DNA of 64,000 nt from Planktothrix paucivesiculata PCC 9631 (GTDB taxonomy: Bacteria; Cyanobacteriota; Cyanobacteriia; Cyanobacteriales; Microcoleaceae): assembly GCF_900009265.2 (NCBI RefSeq), contig NZ_LR735018.1:398387-462386 (forward strand). The letters are read 5' to 3'. Position 1 is the stretch's first letter; every line of letters starts with the position of its first letter. The notes under the pieces were generated by a model that searched no databases, was not told the DNA's origin, and saw only the letters and a list, made by a program, of their open reading frames with translations. Shown in pieces: positions 6,233-18,792 of this stretch. The translations under genes were made by a program, and so were the position numbers.

Positions 6233-8053
6233 ATGACAATCGGTGCAAATTATTTAGGCAACAACTGCTGTGAATTTCGCGTGTGGTCGCCTTTGCGTCA
6301 AAGGGTTGCTGTTAAGATTCTATCCCCCGAAGAACGGTTAATTGATTTAGAACCTGATGAACAAGGATATTGGAGTACAACGGTTGATAATATCCCTCCA
6401 GGAAGCCGTTATTTTTATCAATTAGATGGCAATGCTACCCATCCTGATCCCGCTTCCTATTCTCAACCTGATGGAGTTCATCAAGCCTCAGAAGTGATTG
6501 ATCAAAATAGGTTTGTTTGGCAGGATCACGACTGGAAAAGTATTTCCTTAGATGAATTAATTGTTTATGAACTGCACGTTGGAACCTTTACCCCAGAGGG
6601 AACATTTACCGAAATTATTCCCCGAATTTCGGAGTTATTAGAGTTAGGAATTAATGCGATTGAATTAATGCCCATTGGTCAGTTTCCGGGCGAGCGCAAT
6701 TGGGGTTATGATGGCACCTATCTCTATGCTCCTCAAAATTCCTATGGGGGAGTAGAAGGGTTAAAACAGTTAGTAAATGCTTGCCATCAACAGGGCATGG
6801 CGGTGATTTTAGATGTGGTTTATAATCACTTTGGCCCAGAAGGAAATTATATCGCACAATTCGGCCCCTATTTTACAGACTTCTATCGAACTCCTTGGGG
6901 TTCAGCGATTAATTATGACCAAGCCTATTGTCAGGGCGTGAGGAATTTTATTATTGAAAATGCCCTCTATTGGTTAAGAGAGTTTCATATTGATGCCCTA
7001 CGATTGGATGCGGCTGATAATATTTTTGATCTTGGTGCTAAACATATTTTACAGGAATTAGCTGAACAAGTAAATCAACTTTCTCAACAGCAAGGAAGGC
7101 AGTTTTATTTAATGGCTGAAACGGATTTAAACGATGCTAAATTAATCCGTTCAAAAGCCGTAGGAGGCTATGGTTTGGATGTGCATTGGTGTGATGATTT
7201 TCACCATGCTGTTCATACGCTTTTAACGGGTGAAAATATCGGATACTATCAGGATTATGGGCTCTGTGAACAGTTAGCAAAATCTTACCGAGAAAGCTTT
7301 ATTTATACTTGGGATTATTCCCCTAACCGTAAACGTTTACATGGACAGTCAGCCGTAGATTGTCCTCCCGATCATTTTTTAGTTTTTAGTCAAAATCATG
7401 ACCAAATTGGTAATCGTTTATTAGGGGAAAGATTAACGGCTTTAGTCTCCTATAATGCCCTGAAATTAGCGGCTGCAACGGTGTTGTTATCGCCCTATAT
7501 TCCCCTATTATTTATGGGGGAAGAATATGGAGAACCTGCATATTTTCAATATTTTATTAGTCACTCTGATCCAGATTTAATTGCTGCTGTCCGAAAGGGA
7601 AGAAAGCAGGAATTTGAAGCGTTTCATCTGGAGGGAGAAGCCCCCGATCCTCAAAGTCGAGAAACCTTTGAGCAATGTAAGTTAAATTGGCAATTAAAAC
7701 GGGAAGGCAAACATCAAGTATTATGGGAATTATATCAAAAATTGATTAGATTACGGCGGAATATTCCGGCTTTGAAATTACGCGATCGCACCCATCAAGA
7801 AGTCAAGTGCATAGAGGAAAATAAATTATTATATTTCCGCCGTTGGTTTGAAGATCATCAGGTTTTCTGTGTGATGAATTTTAGTAAAAATTCAGTTTCC
7901 TATAGTCCTGATTTAGTGGGAAAAAATTGGGAAAAATGCTTTGATTCTAACGATCAAAAATGGCTGGGTTCAGGATCAAATTTACCCCAAAATTTAACTA
8001 ATTCTGAAGCATTAACCTTAGTTCCCGAAAGTTTTGTTTTATATAAAACTTAA
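6233..8053 (+). CDS. treZ: Malto-oligosyltrehalose trehalohydrolase
   Basis: A GH13 enzyme of 606 aa that releases trehalose from maltooligosyl-trehalose made by TreY. It has the N-terminal carbohydrate-binding-like domain (about 1-95), then the catalytic barrel with DVVYNHFGPEGNY (194-206), the nucleophile Asp259 in DALRLDAAD, the acid/base Glu296 in MAETD, and the transition-state Asp in SQNHDQIGNR. Length and motif order match TreZ rather than a glycogen branching enzyme. Its partner treY sits 7.9 kb downstream on the same strand, separated by a minus-strand block that converges with treZ only 18 bp after the stop. Confidence 0.95.
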   Translation: MTIGANYLGNNCCEFRVWSPLRQRVAVKILSPEERLIDLEPDEQGYWSTTVDNIPPGSRYFYQLDGNATHPDPASYSQPDGVHQASEVIDQNRFVWQDHDWKSISLDELIVYELHVGTFTPEGTFTEIIPRISELLELGINAIELMPIGQFPGERNWGYDGTYLYAPQNSYGGVEGLKQLVNACHQQGMAVILDVVYNHFGPEGNYIAQFGPYFTDFYRTPWGSAINYDQAYCQGVRNFIIENALYWLREFHIDALRLDAADNIFDLGAKHILQELAEQVNQLSQQQGRQFYLMAETDLNDAKLIRSKAVGGYGLDVHWCDDFHHAVHTLLTGENIGYYQDYGLCEQLAKSYRESFIYTWDYSPNRKRLHGQSAVDCPPDHFLVFSQNHDQIGNRLLGERLTALVSYNALKLAAATVLLSPYIPLLFMGEEYGEPAYFQYFISHSDPDLIAAVRKGRKQEFEAFHLEGEAPDPQSRETFEQCKLNWQLKREGKHQVLWELYQKLIRLRRNIPALKLRDRTHQEVKCIEENKLLYFRRWFEDHQVFCVMNFSKNSVSYSPDLVGKNWEKCFDSNDQKWLGSGSNLPQNLTNSEALTLVPESFVLYKT

Positions 8054-8071
8054 TGGTTAGTTTGAGCAATT

Positions 8072-9172
8072 CTAACGAGATATCTGTCTATTAATTCCTC
8101 GAATAATAGCTTGTATTGGCACTTGCCATAAACTTTCTAAACCCCAAATATATTGGAGATAACTGATAAAATTTAATAGGTTAAAATCATCCGTATTGAC
8201 TGTTCTGGAATACTGGAAATATCTGATTTTTAAACGATCTAATCCTGTATTTTTTTCACCTATTATCATCTGATATTCTTGATCTTCAAATTTAGAAATT
8301 GACAAATTTTCGAGATCGGATAAAATTGAGGAGGAGATCGGTAAATTGAGAATTTCCCGTAACTGCATTATTCTCATTTTTAAAAGTAAAATAAAGCGGT
8401 ATTTTTCAGCTAATCTTAGTAGTCGGTTTCTATCAATTTCAGATGGGTATGACTGAATAGTGATCGCCGCATCAGCTAACCGACTAATAGGCGAAATTGA
8501 ATTAGTTAATCCTCCAAACACACAGGAATAAAATAATTGGTCAGTTGCACATAACAAATAAACAGGAAAATCGCTGACTTGAGTTAATATTGCACTTTGC
8601 CAAAACTCGGTTTCCGCATTTTCATTAAAGCCATCAGCGAAAAGATGCCAGCGCAGACTTAAATATTGCTTAGATTCATTTTCAAATCCAATATAATGAC
8701 TAAAAGGCACAGTAGGATCATACATTTTTCCTAGGGCTGTCCAACCCAATTTTTGTAATAATTTTGTTGCAGTTAAAACATCTTTTGACTTAATCAAAAA
8801 ATCGAGATGATTGATTGATCTTAGACTATAATTTTGATAGTAATGCAAATTTAAAGCGGGATCTTTAAGCATCATTATTTTAATATCCGACTCTTGAAAA
8901 GAACCTAAAATAGAGCGAATTTTTTGAAACCAAACTTGATTTTCAACCCAGCTACGACGGGAAACCCCCTTGAGTCTACCAATATATGGATCGGTGATAT
9001 TATGAGCCGATAAATTGCGATAGAGTAACGGTAATAACTGATAGGATTCTTGATCTACATCGTCAATATTGACTAATGTTTTCCATTTTTGCCAGGGATT
9101 AATTGCTGCTTCACCTTGTAAAAGTGCGACTTGCAAAAGTAATTGTTGCTCTTGACTGGGATTAAAATTCAT
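8072..9172 (-). CDS. NTP_transf_5-type nucleotidyltransferase, degenerate active site
   Basis: A 366-aa protein of the uncharacterised nucleotidyltransferase family (NTP_transf_5). The family framework is recognisable: LLYRNL (50-55), MLKDPAL (101-107), LRSINHLDFLI (117-127) and a later SLRWHL (172-177). Compared with the second copy at 14487-15719, three key points differ: KGP is KDP, the metal-binding SDLD is NHLD (His122 where the first Asp belongs), and ELHW is SLRW. It may be a non-catalytic partner or an altered enzyme (inference). It is the last gene of the minus-strand operon, 18 bp after the lactonase gene. Confidence 0.82.
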   Translation of the reverse strand: MNFNPSQEQQLLLQVALLQGEAAINPWQKWKTLVNIDDVDQESYQLLPLLYRNLSAHNITDPYIGRLKGVSRRSWVENQVWFQKIRSILGSFQESDIKIMMLKDPALNLHYYQNYSLRSINHLDFLIKSKDVLTATKLLQKLGWTALGKMYDPTVPFSHYIGFENESKQYLSLRWHLFADGFNENAETEFWQSAILTQVSDFPVYLLCATDQLFYSCVFGGLTNSISPISRLADAAITIQSYPSEIDRNRLLRLAEKYRFILLLKMRIMQLREILNLPISSSILSDLENLSISKFEDQEYQMIIGEKNTGLDRLKIRYFQYSRTVNTDDFNLLNFISYLQYIWGLESLWQVPIQAIIRGINRQISR

Positions 9173-9190
9173 GGTTTTATGTCTGATTAA

Positions 9191-10138
9191 TTAAGGCACT
9201 TGAATACCGGGAATATTAACTCTAATCCTGTAAATTGAAGTCTTAGCCGTGATATAAAGACTTTGCCCATCTTCATCTCCCCAAGCACAATTTGCGGGTC
9301 GTTCTGGAGTGACAATTGTTCCTAAATGATTGCCTTGACAATCAAACACCCACACGCCCCCGGCTCCGGTACAATAGATGTTTCCCTGCACATCAATTTT
9401 CATCCCATCCGGTGAACCAGGTTCCTCGATATTCATATCGTGAAAAACACGACTATTAGCCAATGTACCATCAATTTCGACATCAAAAACTCGGATATGA
9501 CGGCATTGGGAATCATCAATATAAAGCTGTTTTTCATCGGGTGAAAATGCTAGACCATTGGGTTTATAAAAATCATCGGCTAGGAGAATTATTTGATTAT
9601 GATCCGGCGTAATTAAATAAACTCCTTGGATGGGTTGTTCCTGTTGTTCTGGTTTAATTCCATAGGGAGGATCGGTAAAATAAATTGCACCGTTACTTTT
9701 AACAATAACATCATTAGGACTATTAAGTTTTTTGCCTTGAAATTGATCGGCTAAAATAGTAATTGTACCGTCTTTTTCGGTGCGGGTAACTCGGCGTGTA
9801 CCGTGTTCGCAAGCAATTAATCGTCCCTGTTTATCTCTAGTCAAACCGTTGGAATTATTACTAGGTTCTCTGAAGATAGTTAACTTACCATCAGTAGTCA
9901 GTTGGAAAATTTTGTTAGCAGGAATATCGCTAAATAGAAGATAGTTTTCTGCTGCGAACCAAACTGGCCCTTCAGTAAATTGAAATCCGGTTGCTACGCG
10001 ATCGATCTTTACTTTCTGAGGAAAGAGATTTCTAAACGCTTGAGATTTGGCTTCTAATCGACCCGATGCAGATTTTTTGGGAAAAGTCGAACCGAGTCGT
10101 TTTATCTGTTTTTTGACCCATTTGGCGATACTTAACAT
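9191..10138 (-). CDS. SMP-30/gluconolactonase-family protein
   Basis: A 315-aa six-bladed beta-propeller lactonase-like protein. Residues matching the divalent-metal site of SMP-30 are present: Glu in FTEGPVW, Asn in PNGLAFSPDE and Asp in SPDGMKID, with a further conserved SPNDV. Family members hydrolyse sugar lactones or other lactones and esters. The N-terminus (about 35 residues) is basic with no clear export signal. It lies between an SDR and a nucleotidyltransferase in a tight operon (27 and 18 bp gaps), so a role in processing a sugar-derived or peptide-linked product is possible but unproven. Confidence 0.9.
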   Translation of the reverse strand: MLSIAKWVKKQIKRLGSTFPKKSASGRLEAKSQAFRNLFPQKVKIDRVATGFQFTEGPVWFAAENYLLFSDIPANKIFQLTTDGKLTIFREPSNNSNGLTRDKQGRLIACEHGTRRVTRTEKDGTITILADQFQGKKLNSPNDVIVKSNGAIYFTDPPYGIKPEQQEQPIQGVYLITPDHNQIILLADDFYKPNGLAFSPDEKQLYIDDSQCRHIRVFDVEIDGTLANSRVFHDMNIEEPGSPDGMKIDVQGNIYCTGAGGVWVFDCQGNHLGTIVTPERPANCAWGDEDGQSLYITAKTSIYRIRVNIPGIQVP

Positions 10139-10165
10139 GATATTTTAGGCAAATAAACAGTGTTT

Positions 10166-11080
10166 TTATTTAGGTGGATGCTGAAATACACGATAATTGT
10201 ACAATGACAATCCCCCATCAATTTTAATGATGCTTCCAGTAGTAAACTGGGAAAAATAGTCAGAAGCTAGATAAACAGCCGCTCTACCAATATAACAAGG
10301 AGCGATCGAACACTTATGTAATAGGGTATATTCATGATCTAAAGGGTTTCCTTTCTCGTCCTCTGCCACCCAACCGGGAGCAATTCCATTTACTCTGATT
10401 CCGTAGGGAGAAAATTCTACCGCTAATTCTTTAATAATCATTCCTAATGCTGCTTTTGAAGAACTATAACTAGGCCAGCGAACAAGTATTTCTTGGTGTA
10501 TAGAAGTCAGAAAAATAATAGCACCCTGAATAGAATTACTTACCATCATTTTGGCGATAAGTTTGGTGAGGTACATCGGCCCAAATATATTGGTTTGAAA
10601 AGTTTTTTGCCATTCTCCCAAATTCAAGTTATTGATCCCAATTGTTTCAAATTGAATGCCTACATTATTGACAAGAATATCAATTATGATTTTATTTTCG
10701 TCCAAAATGCTATATAAATAATCAATATCTTCAGGCTTTGATATGTCTGAAACAAAGCTTTTCACCTTAACTGGATAGGTATTTAATTCTTTTTCCAAGT
10801 TTAAACATTCTTCCTCCACAATATCGGTAAAAAAAATATTTGCGCCTTGTTTAGCCATTTCAATAGCAATACTTCTGCCAATATTTCTTGCTGCTCCGGT
10901 AATCAAGACATTTTTTCCGGCTAAAAGCTGATTATCTAAAACTACCAAAGGCTCTACTGTTTTGACAAAAACTTTTGGTTTGAGAGTAGGCATCGGATTA
11001 AGGAAGGCTTTAGATGCAGCTTTGAAACGAGTTTTGATGTTGTTTAGTCGAGTTTTGAAGTTCATGTTAATATTAGCCAT
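10166..11080 (-). CDS. Short-chain dehydrogenase/reductase
   Basis: A classical SDR of 304 aa with an N-terminal extension of about 50 residues. The cofactor motif is TGAARNIG at 61-68, followed by LVNNVGI, the catalytic Ser in FLTSIH and the YSSSK motif, and a C-terminal IKIDGG. It probably oxidises or reduces a sugar or acyl substrate with NAD(P)H. The basic, poorly conserved N-terminal extension (FKTRLNNIKTRFKAASK) resembles the start of the neighbouring SMP-30 protein in style and may be amphipathic. It begins 4 bp after the upstream glycosyltransferase. Confidence 0.9.
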   Translation of the reverse strand: MANINMNFKTRLNNIKTRFKAASKAFLNPMPTLKPKVFVKTVEPLVVLDNQLLAGKNVLITGAARNIGRSIAIEMAKQGANIFFTDIVEEECLNLEKELNTYPVKVKSFVSDISKPEDIDYLYSILDENKIIIDILVNNVGIQFETIGINNLNLGEWQKTFQTNIFGPMYLTKLIAKMMVSNSIQGAIIFLTSIHQEILVRWPSYSSSKAALGMIIKELAVEFSPYGIRVNGIAPGWVAEDEKGNPLDHEYTLLHKCSIAPCYIGRAAVYLASDYFSQFTTGSIIKIDGGLSLYNYRVFQHPPK

Positions 11081-11084
11081 CTGT

Positions 11085-11783
11085 TTAAATATCTTGACCT
11101 TTAGCGCGGCGGCGGTCTAGTGATACTTTCAAAATCTGAAGATATTCAGTTTGGTATTCGCGTTGTTTAATTCCCTTATTGGTTTCGTGCAGTCGCCGCT
11201 TGGCTACTAATTCGGGTAACATCATCGTCTGGAGTCCTAGCTCTGTAACACGCACCTGCCAACTAGCGAATTCGGCTAATTTCCACTGAGTTTCAAATAA
11301 GCCAACTTGAAAAAAAGAATCCCGTTTGATTAGCAATGCTGAAGGAATATGTCCCGGTACTAATTTAGGAGAAACCTGTAGTTTGGCTTTCAGATTCTCG
11401 GCCAAGTCTGGACTAATAAACTGTTGAACCTGTCCGTATACGACATCAAGATTGGGGTTATTTGTAAATGCTGCCATTTGGTTGGTTAATTTATCTTCTA
11501 CCCAAAAGTCATCTGCATCGAGAAAGGCAAAAAAATCGCCTTTGGCTAATTCTATGCCTCGATTACGAGCCGCCGCCGTACCGCTATTGGCTTGAAAACA
11601 GTATTGCACTGTAGTACCAAAGCGCTTTGCTATTTCTGCACTGCCATCAGTTGAACCATCGTCTACAACAATAATTTCTAGTGGTTGATAGGTTTGAGCT
11701 AGTACGCTTTCGATCGCTTCAGCTAGATACTTTTCACAGTTATAAACTGGAATAATGACACTGACTAAAAAATTATTTTCCAT
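11085..11783 (-). CDS. Family 2 glycosyltransferase
   Basis: A GT-A fold, GT2-family transferase. I choose the ATG at 11783 (MENNFLVSVIIPVYN), because the paralogue upstream starts the same way; a GTG start 18 bp further upstream is possible. Motifs are IIVVDDGSTDGS and the metal-binding FLDADDFW. It contains no membrane segment, so it should act on the cytosolic side. The donor and acceptor are unknown. It is clearly a paralogue of the gene at 11839-12612 (shared PVYNxEKYLxEAI, NSGxAAARNRGI). Both could decorate the same product. Confidence 0.9.
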   Translation of the reverse strand: MENNFLVSVIIPVYNCEKYLAEAIESVLAQTYQPLEIIVVDDGSTDGSAEIAKRFGTTVQYCFQANSGTAAARNRGIELAKGDFFAFLDADDFWVEDKLTNQMAAFTNNPNLDVVYGQVQQFISPDLAENLKAKLQVSPKLVPGHIPSALLIKRDSFFQVGLFETQWKLAEFASWQVRVTELGLQTMMLPELVAKRRLHETNKGIKQREYQTEYLQILKVSLDRRRAKGQDI

Positions 11784-11838
11784 TCGCAGATATCCTGTCA
11801 CTTAATTGTTAAAATTTGTCGGGGAAATTTGGCTTTTT

Positions 11839-12612
11839 TTAAGATATTTTTGGAGTGTTAGGAGGCGCACCCAAGTATTCATTAATAGTTGGCATTCCTG
11901 GCAATAAACTACTGGGAGACGTTCCTTTTTTTCTGCACCTATCAAGATGTTTTTTGAATATCCTAACGAACCCCAACTCAGTTAAAGTTTTCCCCACGGT
12001 CATATTTTCCCGGTGCTTTCGATAAAACAGCGTTACCTGCTTTAAGACAACCTTAGATATACTATTTTCCCAGGCTCTGATAAACCAATCAACATCTTCT
12101 GCGTAGCGTAGAGATTCATCAAATAAGCCAATTTTATCAAAAACTAATTTACGATACAATCCGCTCCCTAAGTTAATGTAATTATAGGGATGATACTCTT
12201 TTTCAAATATCGCTATATTGTCATTTGTCAAGTGATAATTTTTCAGGTTTTGGATTAATCCTTGGACAATTTCTACTGAGGGATTATCTACTAAGTAATT
12301 TACTTGCAGTTTCAGTTTATCATCTGACCATAAATCGTCAACATCCAAGAAGGCAATTACATCCCCATTTGCCATACTTATTCCACGGTTTCGCGCTGCT
12401 GCTGGCCCGCTATTTTCCTGATAAATATAGCGGATACTGTCTTTTAATTGGGCAGCTATTTCCGCAGTTTTATCTGTCGAACCATCATCAATTACAATGA
12501 TTTCTAATGGTTGATAATCCTGATTTTTGACATTTTGAATTGCTTCGGATAGATATTTTTCTCCATTGTAAACGGGGATAATAACGCTAACGAATAATGG
12601 TTGATTCTCCAT
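11839..12612 (-). CDS. Family 2 glycosyltransferase
   Basis: A 257-aa GT2-family enzyme, with SVIIPVYNGEKYL near the start, VIDDGSTDKT for nucleotide-sugar binding, FLDVDDLW as the DxD-like motif, and a C-terminal RYAEDVDWFIRAWE acceptor-side motif. It starts 3 bp after the HprK-like gene stop, so it is co-translated in the same operon. The tail (about residues 225-257) is not shared with its paralogue. Its presence beside a kinase and a PqqD fusion raises the possibility that it glycosylates a peptide or a lipid carrier; neither is shown by the sequence. Confidence 0.9.
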   Translation of the reverse strand: MENQPLFVSVIIPVYNGEKYLSEAIQNVKNQDYQPLEIIVIDDGSTDKTAEIAAQLKDSIRYIYQENSGPAAARNRGISMANGDVIAFLDVDDLWSDDKLKLQVNYLVDNPSVEIVQGLIQNLKNYHLTNDNIAIFEKEYHPYNYINLGSGLYRKLVFDKIGLFDESLRYAEDVDWFIRAWENSISKVVLKQVTLFYRKHRENMTVGKTLTELGFVRIFKKHLDRCRKKGTSPSSLLPGMPTINEYLGAPPNTPKIS

Positions 12613-12615
12613 TGT

Positions 12616-13704
12616 TTATGGCTTTGTAATGAGATCGAAAATTACTTGAGAAATTTGTTCTAAATCAGTACCGAGTTCTAGATAATAACCAGGAACTTTT
12701 TGCAAAACTTGCATCATAATTTGACAAGATTCTTTACCAGAACCTGGTAGTTGAATCATGGTACTCGGTACGAGTGAAGCTAAAGCAGCAGCAGCAGAGG
12801 TAGCTGTTAAGGAGGTATCTGTTTTACCAGTAATGCGGGGAATTAAAACTGCACGGATGGGGAATTTTATCAATATTTTTTCGGGGAAATGTTCATGGAT
12901 GAAATAAAGTGCTTTTTCGTCGGAAAGGCGATCGCTATTACTAATAGCCTGGGCCAGAAATGGTAATCTATCCAGATCATCGGCATTTTTTTTGCCCGTG
13001 TTGTAGATGCTAAATACCGTCGGGGTTGGTTCGGGGGAGATGAGACTGTAATCGTCGCTGGCATAAAAAAGCTGAGAATTCAGGCAAGTTAACGCTGTTG
13101 TCGATTTACCAGAACCTCCTTTTCCGACTAGCAGTACGCCACCTGATGGGAGTCCGACAGCACCAGCATGAACTAGCTGGATGCCGCGCTTACTCATCCA
13201 GACGTTTAAAATTGTCCGTAGCGGCGAACCTTTTTCCCAATAAGGAATTTGTTCGGTTGTTTCAACCCAATAAATTCCTAGATTGCGATCGCTATCTAAC
13301 AGACTAAGCGCAAAAGCACCCCATTGGAAACTGGTATGAATGCGATCGCTATTGTAACCGTGAATTTCTCCGCGCTTGGGATGATGTTGATTCCTCTGCC
13401 AAGGTGGAGGTGGCATTACGGTATTTGTCGAGGCGCTATCCCACAAACAAACTGTAAGTGCTGGATCTGAAAAGGGTTCTGTTTCTAAGTGTCCTAAAGC
13501 GGGGGTCATGTATGGAATTAACGCTTCCCCTGCAAACCGCAACCGAATTTTAAACCCTGCTATGCAGTAAAAACGGTCAATACAACCCTCAGCAGAAACC
13601 TCAGCTTTTTCATATAATTCATAAACAGTATTGAAAAAATCTAAAGGGTCTTTCTGAGCAGTTTGAGCAGAATGATCGGGATTTTCAAATGTATTTGTAA
13701 GCAT
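12616..13704 (-). CDS. HprK-like serine kinase homologue
   Basis: A 362-aa protein whose C-terminal part (about 175-362) resembles the HPr kinase/phosphorylase fold. The P-loop is GKGGSGKST at 194-202, preceded by the HAGAVGLPSGGVLLV strand and followed by the acidic FYASDDYSLI segment at 213-222. No HPr or sugar phosphotransferase gene is present, so the substrate is unlikely to be HPr. HprK homologues of this kind are known as tailoring kinases in some lasso-peptide clusters (paeninodin type) and occur beside PqqD-like genes. Here it follows the PqqD fusion gene across a terminator-like hairpin. Confidence 0.82.
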   Translation of the reverse strand: MLTNTFENPDHSAQTAQKDPLDFFNTVYELYEKAEVSAEGCIDRFYCIAGFKIRLRFAGEALIPYMTPALGHLETEPFSDPALTVCLWDSASTNTVMPPPPWQRNQHHPKRGEIHGYNSDRIHTSFQWGAFALSLLDSDRNLGIYWVETTEQIPYWEKGSPLRTILNVWMSKRGIQLVHAGAVGLPSGGVLLVGKGGSGKSTTALTCLNSQLFYASDDYSLISPEPTPTVFSIYNTGKKNADDLDRLPFLAQAISNSDRLSDEKALYFIHEHFPEKILIKFPIRAVLIPRITGKTDTSLTATSAAAALASLVPSTMIQLPGSGKESCQIMMQVLQKVPGYYLELGTDLEQISQVIFDLITKP

Positions 13705-13741
13705 CTGATTTTTGGGATTCAGCGATAATTATAAAAAAATT

Positions 13742-13760
13742 GGGAGGAAAAACCCCTCCC
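13742..13760 (-). terminator. Intrinsic terminator after the PqqD-fusion gene
   Basis: On the minus strand the stem GGGAGG/CCTCCC with a 7-nt loop is followed by AATTTTTTTA. It lies between the PqqD-fusion stop (13774) and the HprK-like start (13704). A T6 run also follows on the plus strand, so it may act both ways. Partial read-through would give much more PqqD mRNA than kinase and glycosyltransferase mRNA. Confidence 0.82.
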
Positions 13761-13773
13761 TTTTTTGAAAGAA

Positions 13774-14232
13774 TTAAGCTTCAACTTTAGCACTCGGCCA
13801 ACCGATTTGCTCGTCAACTTCATGAATGGGATCTAAAGCCAGTAGTTCTTCCATATCTGTGTATTTTTGTAAGCTGGGAAGTTCAAAGTTCAACTTTTCT
13901 TCATTAGGAATGGTTTGAGTTTTATCGTTGTTTTGGCTTTCTACCGCATCTTTTGTATTGACAACAATCAGTTCTTCCTGCTGTAATTGTTCGATAAAAT
14001 TGTTAACAGCATTTTCAATAACGGTGTGCTCACCCTCATAGTGCTGAATGATTTCTGATACAATATCGCCTCTCGAAAGACCTCTAATCAAACCGTCCCA
14101 AATATCTGCACCGACTTTAACTAAACTAAAATAATCTCCCTGCTCCAAGTTGACGACGACAACTTCACCATCAATGCTTTCATGAACAACTTTCGGAGTA
14201 TTGGCATTAAATTTTTCGCCTGGATTTATCAT
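13774..14232 (-). CDS. PqqD-domain protein fused to leader-like acidic tail
   Basis: A 152-aa protein. Residues 1-92 form a PqqD/RRE-like domain (EVVVVNLEQGDYFSLVKVG, then a helical region ending in QLQQEELIVV). A polar linker (93-114) leads to a tail of about 38 residues with PSLQKYTDMEELL at 119-131, LDPIHEVD at 133-140 and GWP at 144-146. PqqD-type domains bind leader peptides in RiPP pathways, and the tail has the PxLxxYxDxxELL pattern reminiscent of lasso-type leaders. The fusion may therefore be a recognition domain joined to its own substrate (inference). It has its own promoter and terminator. No cyclase or leader protease gene is in the window. Confidence 0.8.
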   Translation of the reverse strand: MINPGEKFNANTPKVVHESIDGEVVVVNLEQGDYFSLVKVGADIWDGLIRGLSRGDIVSEIIQHYEGEHTVIENAVNNFIEQLQQEELIVVNTKDAVESQNNDKTQTIPNEEKLNFELPSLQKYTDMEELLALDPIHEVDEQIGWPSAKVEA

Positions 14233-14282
14233 TTCTGATCTGGTTTTTAGGTGGATTAACTCATTGATATTTAACTATCTTA

Positions 14283-14311
14283 ATCATAGTCTTTCCTTAG
14301 ATAGATGTCAA
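14283..14311 (-). promoter_or_regulatory. Near-consensus sigma70 promoter of the PqqD-fusion gene
   Basis: Read on the minus strand, TTGACA (14311-14306) is separated by exactly 17 nt from TATGAT (14288-14283). The predicted start of transcription near 14276 leaves a leader of about 45 nt before the ATG at 14232. This is the best-matching promoter I saw in the window and predicts strong, largely constitutive expression. Confidence 0.75.
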
Positions 14312-14394
14312 GTTCATTTAAGGTAAATTTTAGATTCGATTCGCAAAAAAATATTGTTTATTTTGACTGAATTTAAAAAAGCCAAATGCTTACC

Positions 14395-14416
14395 CTCCTT
14401 TAAATAGTTAAAGGAG
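14395..14416. terminator. Hairpin between nucleotidyltransferase and PqqD-fusion genes
   Basis: A perfect 9-bp inverted repeat (ctcctttaa/ttaaaggag) with a 4-nt loop. On the minus strand a T6 run follows about 20 nt later, so it is only partly terminator-like. It would separate the transcript of the 14487-15719 gene from the promoter at 14283-14311. Confidence 0.55.
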
Positions 14417-14486
14417 CAAAATTCCTATTTTAAGAAGTTGGTAGATGATACACAAATAGCTTTTAGGAAATTGAAGCAATGTTCAG

Positions 14487-15719
14487 TTATTTCTTAACTC
14501 TTTTGACGACCTGCTCTATTATTAACCGCAGGGGTCGCAGTAGATAGTAAATAAAAGCGGGAAATTTTGCTAAGGGAAGTACCAACCAATCGGTCGTTGT
14601 TGGTGTCATTGCAACCTTCAAAAAGTATCGCACCCGATCTTGAAATTGTTCTCTTACTTTGAGATGAAAGCGGGTCGTTGAACCATCTTTAAACGAACTA
14701 TCGACTTGAGAACAAAGCTGCTTGTATACTTGATCAGCTAGGGATTCAACCTCTGGATCGGCTTGTATTTTTTGCAGAATATCCTGGGGTAGAATTGTTC
14801 CTAAAAGATTATGGGCAAGTATTAGACCTAAAAATAGCATTCGTTGACCGCCTTTCTGAGTCGCTTTCTCAATTAATTTTGACCAATCTAATTGGGGATG
14901 AGAGCGAATATATTCAGCTAAATCACAGATGCGAGCCAGTTGTGTCCAACACTCTTTAGTTCCGTGTCCTGTAATTGCTAATACTGCATTTTCTGGTGCT
15001 AAATTCGGTATAGTTTTTCCAGCAATAACAACAGAATCTAAGTTTTCCCATAACCCCTGATCATCAATAGGAAAAGAAAAATACTTCGGCATAATTCCCC
15101 AGTGAAGTTCTACCAATATTTCTTTCTGGGGGTGAAGAAATGGATAGGCAGCTTCGCGGACAAATTGATAGATTTGATCCGATTGCAAAAACACTTTTTC
15201 CTGTTCCGGTGTTAACTCAACACGCTCAATTTTCATCCCATATCCCTCAGATAAAAACAGCGCCTTTGACCGTTCAATATCTTGAGAATGAATGAGAATA
15301 TCTAAATCGCTGAACTGTCGCAGCAGCAAATTACCATAGGCAGAAGCAGCTAAAACAGGCCCCTTAAAAGGAAGAATTGGGATTCCTTGTATTTCAAACA
15401 AATTCAACAATCTGACCAGTTCACCACTCAATAATAGGCTTTTACGGGTATTAAACTGAAACTCTATTTTTAACTTTTTTAAAGTTAGTTTGGGAACCAT
15501 TTCAGGACAAATCGCGTTCAGATTCGAGTATAAAAGTGGCATCACCTTATGTTGATTTGCCATTTGTATCAACTCAGCCCAATCTATATTTTCTTGTAGT
15601 AGATTTTTCAGTCGCTGTCTGCTTTCGGTGTCTACCTGAGTGTTAGCACAAATTAGCAATATTTCTAATTCTGGCGAAATTTGCACCAACGAAGACCAAC
15701 TAGATGATTTTAGTAACAT
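14487..15719 (-). CDS. NTP_transf_5-type nucleotidyltransferase
   Basis: A 410-aa member of the uncharacterised nucleotidyltransferase family, with an apparently intact active site: FKGPVLA (118-124), the metal-binding SDLDILI with Asp138 and Asp140, and VELHW (203-207). The C-terminal end is basic and partly hydrophobic (about 375-410, FIYYLLRPLRLIIEQ), suggesting membrane association. Homologues occur with PqqD and HprK-like genes, and a nucleotidyltransferase of this general kind is a known lasso-peptide tailoring enzyme (pseudomycoidin type). It is first in the minus-strand block and 254 bp from the PqqD fusion gene, so it may be a separate transcript. Confidence 0.85.
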   Translation of the reverse strand: MLLKSSSWSSLVQISPELEILLICANTQVDTESRQRLKNLLQENIDWAELIQMANQHKVMPLLYSNLNAICPEMVPKLTLKKLKIEFQFNTRKSLLLSGELVRLLNLFEIQGIPILPFKGPVLAASAYGNLLLRQFSDLDILIHSQDIERSKALFLSEGYGMKIERVELTPEQEKVFLQSDQIYQFVREAAYPFLHPQKEILVELHWGIMPKYFSFPIDDQGLWENLDSVVIAGKTIPNLAPENAVLAITGHGTKECWTQLARICDLAEYIRSHPQLDWSKLIEKATQKGGQRMLFLGLILAHNLLGTILPQDILQKIQADPEVESLADQVYKQLCSQVDSSFKDGSTTRFHLKVREQFQDRVRYFLKVAMTPTTTDWLVLPLAKFPAFIYYLLRPLRLIIEQVVKRVKK

Positions 15720-15987
15720 TTGGCTCCACTTGTCTGGCTATAAATTGATTAATAACTTCAGGTTATTGGTTAACCCAAGTTACGAGTAATAACTATGCGG
15801 ATATTCCCTGATTAGAATATAACCCAATTAGTGCTGAGATTATCTCTAATATGACAAGCCTGAAAAAATCCCATAATATTTGAGATTTATCAGCCCAAAC
15901 AACATCTTCAATCTTTAGATAGATAACACCAATCAAAAATCCAGGTTAAAATTAAAGTGTTGTCTAAAGTTTTATCTCAAAATTATT

Positions 15988-18792
15988 ATGCGAATTCCTC
16001 TAGCGACCTATCGAATTCAGTTTAATAGCGATTTCCCATTTAATCATGCTCAAGCAATTATTAATTATTTGCATGAATTGGGAATTTCCGACCTGTATGC
16101 GTCTCCAATTTTTAAAGCCAGAATTGGAAGTACCCATGGCTATGATATTGTTGATCAAAATCAACTTAACCCCGAATTAGGAACCCCGGAAGATTTTGAT
16201 CAATTAATGGAAGAAATTAAAAATCAGGGGATGGGATGGTTACAGGATATTGTTCCTAATCACATGGCCTATGATAGCCAAAATAAATATTTAACTGATA
16301 TTTTTCAATATGGTTATGATTCCGATTATTTAGATTTTTTTGATATTGACTGGAAACATTCCCATGCTGACTTTAAAGGTCGTGTTTTAGCTCCCTTATT
16401 AGGGGATTTTTATGGTAATTGTTTAGAGAATAGACAGTTAAGTATTAGCTACGAAGAAGAAGAATTATGTGTAAATTATTATAACCTAAAATTCCCCTTA
16501 AAAATTGAATCCTATACTTATTTAGTCAGTCATCGCCTGAAAGAATTAGAAGAAAGATTAGGACGAAGACACCCGAATGTCATTAAACTTTTAGGGGTGC
16601 TTTATGTTCTTAAAAATATTCCCAATGAAACCTCCAGTCAAGATCGGCGATCGCAAGCCCTATTTGCTAAAGGATTACTCTGGGGATTGTATCAAGAAAA
16701 CGCTGATATTAAAAAAATTATTGATGAAAATATTCAATATTTGAATGGGGAAACCGGAGATGCTGAAAGTTTTAACTTTTTAGATAAACTATTATCTGAA
16801 CAAATTTTTCGATTATCCTATTGGAAAGTGGGCGCGGAAGAATTGAACTATCGACGCTTCTTTACCGTCAATGAATTAATTAGTGTCAAGGTAGAAGATG
16901 AAAAAGTATTTAATAAAACCCATGATCTAATTTTTAAATTAGTCAGATCGGGAAAATTTACCGGACTTAGAATTGATCATATTGATGGACTCTATAACCC
17001 CCTGCAATACTTACAATCTATTCGAGAAAAGGTCGGAAATATTTATCTAACCGTCGAGAAAATTTTAGAAATTGAGGAAGACTTACTGAGTCCTTGGCCA
17101 ATTGAAGGAACCTCCGGTTATGAATTTTTAATTTATGTTAATAGTTTATTTTGTCAAACCAAAAATGAAGATCGGTTTAGCCAAATTTATCGAGATGCAA
17201 CGGGTTTAGCCGTATCCTTTAAACAACTATTAATTAACAAAAAACGCTTAATTGCTAATCGTAACTTAGCCGGAGATGCCGATAATTTAGCCCAATTACT
17301 CAAGCAAATCGCAGGTCAATATCGTTACGGACGAGACTTAACCTTACATGGATTACAAACCGCTATTTTAGAAGTATTAGTCCGGTTTCCAGTCTATCGA
17401 ACCTATATTAATGAAGGACAAGTTAGCGAAGCCGATCGATATTATGTGCAATTTGCGATTCAAGAAGCTAAAGGAAAACACCCTGAACTGATTAACGAAC
17501 TGAATTTAATTGAAAAGTTTCTCTTACTAGAATATGACCCCTATTTAAGTGATGAAAACAAACGGTTATGGCTGCATTTTGTGATGAAATTCCAACAGTT
17601 TTCCGGGCCATTAACTGCAAAAGGAGTGGAAGATACCCTATTTTATGTTTATAACCGTTTTGTTTCTTTAAATGAAGTCGGTGGCGCACCAAATCACTTT
17701 GGAATTAGTCCCGATACCCTGCATCAATTTAATAAAAAACGGGCAAAAAGTTGGCCCCATACCCTGAATACCACCTCAACCCATGATACAAAACGCAGTG
17801 AAGATTTACGCGCCAGGTTAAACGTTATTTCTGAAATTCCTGATGAATGGGAAGCCCAAGTTAGAACTTGGATGGCGTTAAACCGAGAACAGAAAACCGA
17901 AACCGATGGAAGAATTATTCCTGACGGGAATGATGAATATTTCTTGTATCAAAATTTAATTGGTTCTTACCCCTTTGATGAAATTGAATATCCCGAATTT
18001 GTAGAACGGGTTAAACAGTTTGCAATTAAAGCCGTCCGAGAAGCAAAATTTCATACGGCTTGGTTACGTCCTGACTCGGTTTATGAGGAAGGTTATCTAG
18101 CTTTTATTGATAAAATTTTGAATCCTTATGAGAACAATAAGTTTTTACAACAGTTCAGAACTTTTCAACAAAAAATAGCCTTTTATGGAATCTTTAATTC
18201 TCTCTCCCAAACCTTAATTAAAATTACCAGCCCGGGTTTACCAGATTTTTACCAAGGAACAGAACTTTGGGATTTTAGTTTAGTTGACCCGGATAATCGT
18301 CGTCCGGTTGATTATCAAAAACGGATAAAATATCTCAAGGAAATTAAAACCCGTTCTCAAAAGAATATTTTATCTTTAATTGAGGAGTTAAAACAGACGC
18401 CGGAAGATGGAAGGATTAAGTTATTTTTAACGACTCAAGCGTTAGCCATCCGTCAACAATATCTGGAAGTTTATCAACAGGGTACTTACATTCCTTTAGA
18501 GGTAACGGGAGACTATGGAGAACATATTTTAGCCTTTGGTCGTACCTATGGTCAGACGATTATGATTACCATTGTTCCTCGATTTTTAACGAATTTAGTC
18601 GAACCCAAACAGTTTCCTTTAGGAAATAATATTTGGAAAGATACGGCAATTAAATTACCGAAAGATTGGACAAATGATTGGAAAGAAATGATTACAAACC
18701 AACGGATTAAAGGCAATCATTCCTTGAATATCGGAGATATTTTAACAGTATTTCCCGTGGCTTTATTAGCAACTTCATGTACAGATAATTGA
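15988..18792 (+). CDS. treY: Malto-oligosyltrehalose synthase
   Basis: A GH13 enzyme of 934 aa that converts the reducing end of maltodextrins into a trehalose unit, the step before TreZ. The start MRIPLATYRIQFN is typical of TreY. Catalytic-barrel motifs follow: WLQDIVPNHMAY, LRIDHIDGL with the nucleophile Asp330, TVEKIL with the acid/base Glu and STHDTKRSED with the third acid. The long insert domains between barrel elements explain the length. A 268-bp gap precedes it, with no terminator-like element recognised. It is on the same strand as treZ but cannot be in the same transcript because of the intervening block. Confidence 0.95.
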   Translation: MRIPLATYRIQFNSDFPFNHAQAIINYLHELGISDLYASPIFKARIGSTHGYDIVDQNQLNPELGTPEDFDQLMEEIKNQGMGWLQDIVPNHMAYDSQNKYLTDIFQYGYDSDYLDFFDIDWKHSHADFKGRVLAPLLGDFYGNCLENRQLSISYEEEELCVNYYNLKFPLKIESYTYLVSHRLKELEERLGRRHPNVIKLLGVLYVLKNIPNETSSQDRRSQALFAKGLLWGLYQENADIKKIIDENIQYLNGETGDAESFNFLDKLLSEQIFRLSYWKVGAEELNYRRFFTVNELISVKVEDEKVFNKTHDLIFKLVRSGKFTGLRIDHIDGLYNPLQYLQSIREKVGNIYLTVEKILEIEEDLLSPWPIEGTSGYEFLIYVNSLFCQTKNEDRFSQIYRDATGLAVSFKQLLINKKRLIANRNLAGDADNLAQLLKQIAGQYRYGRDLTLHGLQTAILEVLVRFPVYRTYINEGQVSEADRYYVQFAIQEAKGKHPELINELNLIEKFLLLEYDPYLSDENKRLWLHFVMKFQQFSGPLTAKGVEDTLFYVYNRFVSLNEVGGAPNHFGISPDTLHQFNKKRAKSWPHTLNTTSTHDTKRSEDLRARLNVISEIPDEWEAQVRTWMALNREQKTETDGRIIPDGNDEYFLYQNLIGSYPFDEIEYPEFVERVKQFAIKAVREAKFHTAWLRPDSVYEEGYLAFIDKILNPYENNKFLQQFRTFQQKIAFYGIFNSLSQTLIKITSPGLPDFYQGTELWDFSLVDPDNRRPVDYQKRIKYLKEIKTRSQKNILSLIEELKQTPEDGRIKLFLTTQALAIRQQYLEVYQQGTYIPLEVTGDYGEHILAFGRTYGQTIMITIVPRFLTNLVEPKQFPLGNNIWKDTAIKLPKDWTNDWKEMITNQRIKGNHSLNIGDILTVFPVALLATSCTDN

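Follow-up and report, generated by a model that had tools for sequence, protein, structure and literature searches.

A lasso-type RRE domain with a conserved leader-like tail in a cyanobacterial kinase, nucleotidyltransferase and glycosyltransferase cassette

RiPP recognition elements (RREs), the PqqD-like domains found in pathways for ribosomally synthesized and post-translationally modified peptides (RiPPs), are regarded as domains whose role is to bind a leader peptide supplied as a separate chain. The closest described relatives of the locus considered here come from lasso-peptide pathways, in which the RRE is the B1 protein and in which a kinase or a nucleotidyltransferase may tailor the product. 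Here we analyze a stretch of 64,000 nucleotides from the cyanobacterium Planktothrix paucivesiculata PCC 9631 (GCF_900009265.2, contig NZ_LR735018.1, positions 398,387 to 462,386; the window, hereafter), in which a 152-residue protein that joins an RRE domain to a conserved tail is encoded together with an HprK-like kinase, two NTP_transf_5 proteins, two family 2 glycosyltransferases (GT2) and two further enzymes. The initial annotation of this eight-gene cassette proposed that the recognition domain and its substrate form one chain, and that the product is phosphorylated, nucleotidylated or glycosylated; this first reading is partly supported by the results below.

The lasso B1 proteins TbiB1 and TfuB1 resemble the 152-residue protein in fold and sequence, but the latter carries a conserved leader- and core-like tail and has no B2 protease, cyclase or precursor gene nearby. 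The lasso-tailoring kinases PadeK, ThcoK and BsfK are described with the same His-Lys-Asp-Asp set as the kinase of the window (PMC9266682, PMC10368454), the former source reporting the same kind of catalytic residues for lasso kinases. For BsfK, PMC10368454 describes phosphorylation of core residue 3, inactivity on the core peptide alone, acceleration by the RRE and an effect of Ile at position -2; it also places the YxxPxL motif of lasso leaders at positions -17 to -12. In the pseudomycoidin pathway PsmN, an annotated nucleotidyltransferase encoded beside the kinase, is linked by a knock-out to hexoses on phospho-Ser, an account that allows for the sugar being attached to the product of PsmN by an E. 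coli enzyme (PMC9266682). Unlike that pathway, the cassette has no lasso peptide, and one of its two NTP_transf_5 copies has a degenerate DxD motif. Butyrivibrio lasso clusters also combine a nucleotidyltransferase, an HPr kinase and GT2, there as extra genes inside the clusters (PMC7533575), whereas lasso genes are absent from the loci of the present family. Fusions of RREs with glycosyltransferases (PF00535) likewise couple an RRE to GT2 (PMC7470986, PMC12710340), but in our family the fusion partner of GT2 is the kinase, and that of the RRE is the leader-like tail. Borosins, too, carry the core peptide on the chain of the processing domain (PMC7878506), which is a methyltransferase there and an RRE here. 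Set against these systems, the enzymes of the cassette look, from their families, like those that tailor the product in known lasso pathways, with the synthetase half of these pathways missing. Among the matches listed in the open-licence literature, we found no system of PqqD/RRE, HPr kinase, nucleotidyltransferase and glycosyltransferase like the cassette, and none under RRE-precursor fusions or under lasso peptides with Melainabacteria; the motif LDPIHEV was not found in that literature.

The RRE domain and its two-part tail

All eight open reading frames (ORFs) first reported are present on the minus strand between 8072 and 15719, and their Pfam families were confirmed, with a weak family score for the HprK-like kinase. 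The gene for the 152-residue protein (13774-14232), which we term the PqqD-tail protein, matches PF05402 over residues 23-89 (13966-14166) with 52.4 bits against a cut-off of 23.4; the NCBIfam model of the lasso PqqD chaperone, NF033536, gives 57.3 bits, below its curated cut-off of 80. Searches of the PDB with a profile of the protein recovered TbiB1 (5.6e-16), a lasso PqqD chaperone (3.6e-12), TfuB1 (4.3e-5) and a PqqD family protein (3.6e-4). A structure model built from 4 sequences (mean predicted local distance difference test score, pLDDT, 63.6; predicted template modelling score 0.60) has the RRE fold, and its Foldseek ranks 1-6 are chains of TbiB1 and TfuB1 solved with leader peptides. 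On profile and model alike, the domain can be classed as an RRE of the lasso B1 type.

A variable linker (residues 93-113, 13894-13956) leads into the tail, for which a fixed LDPIHEVD-GWP motif had been predicted. The prediction was borne out in an alignment of 36 distinct homologues, comprising 15 from Cyanobacteria, 1 from the Bacteroidota draw of genomes and 20 from f31, a family of the cyanobacterial phylum that belongs to another class. The matched f31 genomes are of 1.6-2.5 Mb, and we infer the family to be Vampirovibrionia or Melainabacteria. Mean entropy is 0.89 bits over residues 124-147, as against 1.91 in the PqqD domain (10-92) and 2.68 in the linker. Among ten cyanobacterial sequences, whose synonymous sites are close to saturated, the uncorrected ratio of non-synonymous to synonymous differences (pN/pS) is 0.23 over residues 114-131 and 0.19 over 132-149, with 0.44 in the domain and 0.78 in the linker. 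Asp126, Leu131, Asp134, Pro135 and Trp145 are kept in 36/36 homologues, His137 and Gly144 in 35/36, and Lys149 in 33/36. These figures point to a tail conserved by selection, more strongly than its own domain, and not by chance.

The tail is built of two modules: a leader-like half in the register of lasso leaders (F/YxxPxL..Y.DM..LL; residues 114-132, LNFELPSLQKYTDMEELLA, 13837-13893) and a core-like fixed box, DPIHEV....GW (residues 133-149, LDPIHEVDEQIGWPSAK, 13786-13836). The two are separable, since in 17/17 kinase-PqqD fusions of f31 the second PqqD keeps the first half of the tail without the DPIH box, as judged by eye in the alignment; the PqqD-tail protein neighbouring these fusions retains both modules. 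In the structure model the linker has low confidence (pLDDT < 50 for 94-113); residues 121-124 then form a strand and 127-131 a helix (pLDDT 72 for residues 121-130), and confidence is low again from residue 135. The predicted strand would fit docking of the leader-like half on the sheet of the RRE domain.

To measure the likeness to lasso leaders we used a position-specific scoring matrix (PSSM) drawn exclusively from 27 lasso leaders, taken from 18 control loci that lack the tail. Its best window is the tail register in 15/15 cyanobacterial tail proteins. Only 3 of 500 shuffles score as well as the leader-like half of the window's protein, and at most 8 of 500 do so in 13/15 of the cyanobacterial tails, the weak ones being L037 (49) and L049 (241). 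Against a background of 235 other ORFs of 100-200 residues (median best score -9.1, 95th percentile -0.78), 12/15 of these tails lie above the 95th percentile, and few exceed the top background ORFs, which score 4.8 and 3.7 once a genuine precursor-like ORF (45.8) is set aside. In the Bacteroidota draw 5/5 proteins likewise have their best window at the register; 0-1 of 500 shuffles do as well in three of them, 51 and 61 in the other two. Column by column, Y/W of the leader corresponds to F in the tail, P to P, L to L, Y/H/F to Y/F, V/I to M and L/I to L. Of 14 tails compared, 11 have Thr in place of the leader's invariant Gly, and all 14 have Leu for its Thr(-2). With the published spacing applied, Phe116 takes position -17 and Leu131 position -2, and the second core residue is the invariant Asp134; the fixed box would thus begin where a lasso core begins.

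The cassette is probably a lasso-derived variant in which RRE, leader and core share one chain, with a chemistry that is predicted. The reading we prefer, held tentatively at a little under an even chance, is that it derives from the lasso-peptide tailoring kit and that its RRE (B1) permanently carries its own leader-core peptide. The leader-like half would dock in cis on the RRE sheet and present the DPIHEV-GW box to the kinase, which would phosphorylate something in, or bound by, the RRE-tail complex. NTP_transf_5 would then attach a hexose or a nucleotide to that phosphate, the activity proposed for PsmN, which we take to be a member of the same family, and the GT2 enzymes would extend or decorate the product. 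The peptide stays the same while the complement of glycosyltransferases changes, as would suit an acceptor or carrier that is constant and bears a glycan that is not.

The initial annotation had also suggested a search for short orphan peptides resembling the tail. In 386 genomes all 31 strong matches to a tail profile lie on proteins that also match the PqqD profile, in frames of 150-228 residues or, for a fusion, 661 residues; stand-alone tail peptides and tails on other proteins were discarded on this ground. One weak partial match was seen in a 42-residue frame (G293:C38:4911-4958, E 0.008). The tail has no match among PDB sequences at E 1, occurs among plasmids only in Crinalium, and matched 7 phage records at E 6-10, which we judged to be chance; no PqqD-tail was found in viral contigs.

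The kinase, the company of the tail and the missing lasso genes

The HprK-like kinase (362 residues, 12616-13704) scores below the cut-offs of its family models (PF07475, 15.5 bits against 33.3; NCBIfam HprK_rel_B, 22.7 against 200), and the catalytic set, His179, Lys200, Asp217 and Asp218, is invariant in 24 aligned relatives. Searched for separately, the tail profile and the kinase protein (E up to 1e-6) have matches in the identical 29 of 386 genomes. The Bacteroidota draw yielded the tail in 5/395 genomes, with the kinase adjoining in all five loci, and the kinase in 6/262 genomes, 4 of them with the tail; G744, which has both, lies outside those six. Compared with kinases of the lasso control loci, those of the tail loci, some of them fused to GT2 or PqqD, fall on a separate side of a branch (39 against 14 rows; Shimodaira-Hasegawa-like approximate likelihood ratio 99) in a quick tree without bootstrap, which used 53 of 59 rows, lost 6 control rows to trimming and does not contain PadeK, ThcoK or BsfK. 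Fusions join PqqD-tail to kinase (L048) and kinase to GT2 (L062, L137, L138 and the cut L166).

This tight pairing also suits a different role, in which the tail serves for docking or assembly and brings the kinase, or GT2, to the RRE scaffold, the substrate being a glycan or protein encoded elsewhere. Covalent PqqD-kinase fusions exist, the tail and the kinase share the same 29 of 386 genomes, and in 12/20 f31 loci the PqqD-tail ORF overlaps the preceding kinase ORF by 20-26 bp. A further argument, and the main difficulty for the fused leader-core model, lies in the tail itself: none of its Ser, Thr, Tyr, Asn and Cys residues is shared by all 36 homologues, and so no phosphate or sugar acceptor is evident. 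To this extent the proposed phosphorylated or glycosylated product did not hold as worded, and of the one-chain proposal the leader-like segment stands while the acceptor does not; the acceptor could be Asp or His or could differ between members of the family, and otherwise the tail would dock an enzyme that acts on another substrate. On the other side, the kinase of L048 is fused to PqqD-tail, so that docking is no longer needed there, yet its tail is still conserved; a leader-like register is unexpected in a kinase-docking motif; and no candidate-substrate gene recurs, either among ORFs of at least 70 residues (24 loci) or among small ORFs (40 loci). We consider docking nearly as likely as the fused leader-core model, although we would not expect it to prove correct.

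Locus contents were counted among genes within 7 kb of the PqqD gene in 40 tail loci, the precursor being scored over whole loci; near relatives are among them (the window and L001; L062, L137 and L138; the 20 f31 loci), so these are not 40 independent events. The controls were 27 PqqD loci without a tail, which are all the tail-less matches to the protein once the second PqqD domains of kinase fusions are left out. The tail loci contain the kinase in 39, NTP_transf_5 in 36 and GT2 in 38 cases (at least two GT2 in 33), with an Asn-synthetase-like cyclase, a B2 protease and a lasso-type precursor with a YxxPxL leader (one pattern) in 0 each. The corresponding figures in the control loci are 20, 7 and 1 for the three tailoring enzymes, and 22, 22 and 19 for cyclase, protease and precursor. 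The co-occurrence asked about for PqqD, HprK-like and NTP_transf_5 genes thus extends well beyond the window, as does the lack of cyclase and protease, and the gene set tracks a tail that is itself conserved in homologues.

A search of the whole window with profiles from the control loci likewise gave no lasso cyclase and no B2 protease (E 0.01). An all-against-all comparison of 688 small ORFs (20-99 residues, mostly outside larger genes) from the 40 tail loci produced no family in more than 3 loci, all of them near relatives, whereas the same search of the 27 control loci returned lasso precursors as the largest family (13/27). With cyclase, protease and precursor all absent, a lasso-peptide reading of these loci was rejected. 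A lasso or other RiPP pathway could still have its precursor and synthetase elsewhere in the genome, as might be argued from the B1 type of the RRE domain and from a Crinalium epipsammum plasmid (L054), on which most of the cassette gene set is accompanied by an ATP-binding cassette (ABC) exporter (L054 15470-17248) whose closest matches elsewhere come from the exporters of lasso loci (top match 1.5e-215). A search for the B2-type protease family PF13471 found it in 4/17 genomes, including 3 that carry a tail; the genome of the window gave no match, and the cyclase family was not searched genome-wide. Together with the empty counts in the tail loci, the lack of this protease makes a hidden pathway very improbable, and we regard it as already disfavoured.

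The two GT2 genes of the window (11085-11801 and 11839-12612) and the presence of GT2 in nearly all tail loci raise a further alternative, namely an ordinary cluster for surface-polysaccharide glycosylation in which PqqD and the kinase have regulatory or scaffolding parts. The 90 non-core neighbours that we picked are in keeping with it in so far as they include Glycos_transf_1 (8), GT8 (7) and epimerase (6) members, but flippase, polymerase and initiating transferase are not among the best 25 of their 104 families. Moreover, we know of no surface-polysaccharide pathway in which an RRE with an invariant tail and a paired kinase takes part, which weighs against this alternative, and we think it distinctly improbable.

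Weighing the fused leader-core reading

Several observations count against the view that the RRE carries its own leader and core. The function of every enzyme is assigned from its family, and no release protease was found. The leader-like register was first spotted by eye in the same tails that were later tested; it is the best window in only 3/20 f31 proteins, the resemblance is weak in L037, L049, L062 and L137, and the scores of L037, L041 and L049 fall under the background 95th percentile. Because the register fails in f31, leader homology as a universal claim was rejected. The third tail of G270 (L050), DPPMPDAGEIPW, is without the His and was missed by the tail profile, and the L048 tail is internal in a 649-residue chain, so that the tail is not always a free C-terminus. 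The structure model is built from 4 sequences with a modest mean confidence, and the pairing of strand 121-124 with the domain sheet is putative. Nor is the company of the tail perfect: L094 has a tail without a nearby kinase, and in G198 the kinase sits on another contig; NTP_transf_5 is not within 7 kb in 4/40 loci and GT2 in 2/40 (one, L052, at a contig end); and two of the six kinase-positive genomes of the Bacteroidota draw have no detected tail, of which G507 has a kinase that runs off the contig end, and G418 a weak kinase match (2.2e-8) with no PqqD nearby.

A bolder form of the leader-core reading would make the PqqD-tail protein an encoded carrier that needs no cleavage, with its leader held in cis and its DPIHEV-GW box priming a phosphoglycan that varies between strains, possibly through a phosphate on Asp or His instead of Ser. 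We consider this unlikely; such a carrier, if real, would be a ribosomal counterpart of the lipid or protein primers of glycans.

Genomic setting and implications

The NTP_transf_5 proteins at 14487-15719 and 8072-9172 both pass the PF14907 cut-off of 31.2, with 204.6 and 94 bits. The DxD pair is catalytic in this family; by a single sequence pattern, which finds no match in many relatives, it is intact in the former (FSDLDILI) and degenerate in the latter (INHLDFLI). The copy at 8072-9172, like its counterpart in L001, is without the first Asp and sits beside the intact copy; it may be inactive, possibly a pseudo-enzyme. An NTP_transf_5 profile gave no PDB match at E 0.1. The oxidoreductase of the short-chain dehydrogenase/reductase (SDR) type (10166-11080) and the SMP-30/gluconolactonase-like (SMP-30/SGL) protein (9191-10138), both assigned by Pfam, belong to groups that occur in 7/24 and 6/24 loci by clustering (tail-less L053 included), and are accessory. 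In cassettes of the Bacteroidota draw, the GT2 row is followed by proteins of 447-466 residues that match no Pfam family at E 0.001 (L062 16308-19096; L138 16747-18132).

Two plus-strand genes, which we take to be treZ and treY, flank the cassette (6233-8053 and 15988-18792). In three congeners (G157, G255 and G262), where neither the PqqD-tail protein nor the kinase has a match, the flanking pair lies 210-383 bases apart, as against 7.9 kb in the genome of the window and 8.7 kb in Planktothrix sp. PCC 11201 (G386, L001). Given this empty arrangement, the cassette (8053-15988) is an optional insertion. A terminator-like hairpin with a T-run (13742-13760), common to the window and L001, stands directly 3' of the PqqD-tail gene, and L093 has a different one, judged by eye, in that place. 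Its use as a sign of a precursor gene was set aside, since in most other loci the gap at this place is small or absent. Upstream of the PqqD-tail gene, 14283-14311 holds a promoter-like site (11/12), of a kind regionally no commoner than in shuffles. The gaps 14233-14486 and 15720-15987 contain no convincing small ORF, and a PADLOC defence search with the 8 cassette proteins gave no match. On an Azospirillum plasmid (L055 7947-12091) a PqqD gene adjoins those for an aspartyl/asparaginyl beta-hydroxylase and an asparagine-synthase-related protein, with polysaccharide genes nearby, and is perhaps another RRE-based modification system.

In genome sets that were without Pseudomonadota, Bacillota and Actinomycetota, the family is conserved in Cyanobacteria, in another class of that phylum with small genomes, and in the Bacteroidota draw. 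Such a family could escape pathway searches that rely on finding a short precursor as a gene in its own right. Its tail offers a defined target of 40 residues for the chemistry of an HprK-like kinase, NTP_transf_5 and GT2. If the fused leader-core reading is true, an RRE, a leader and a fixed core in one chain would add a third design to the discrete and the enzyme-fused RREs.

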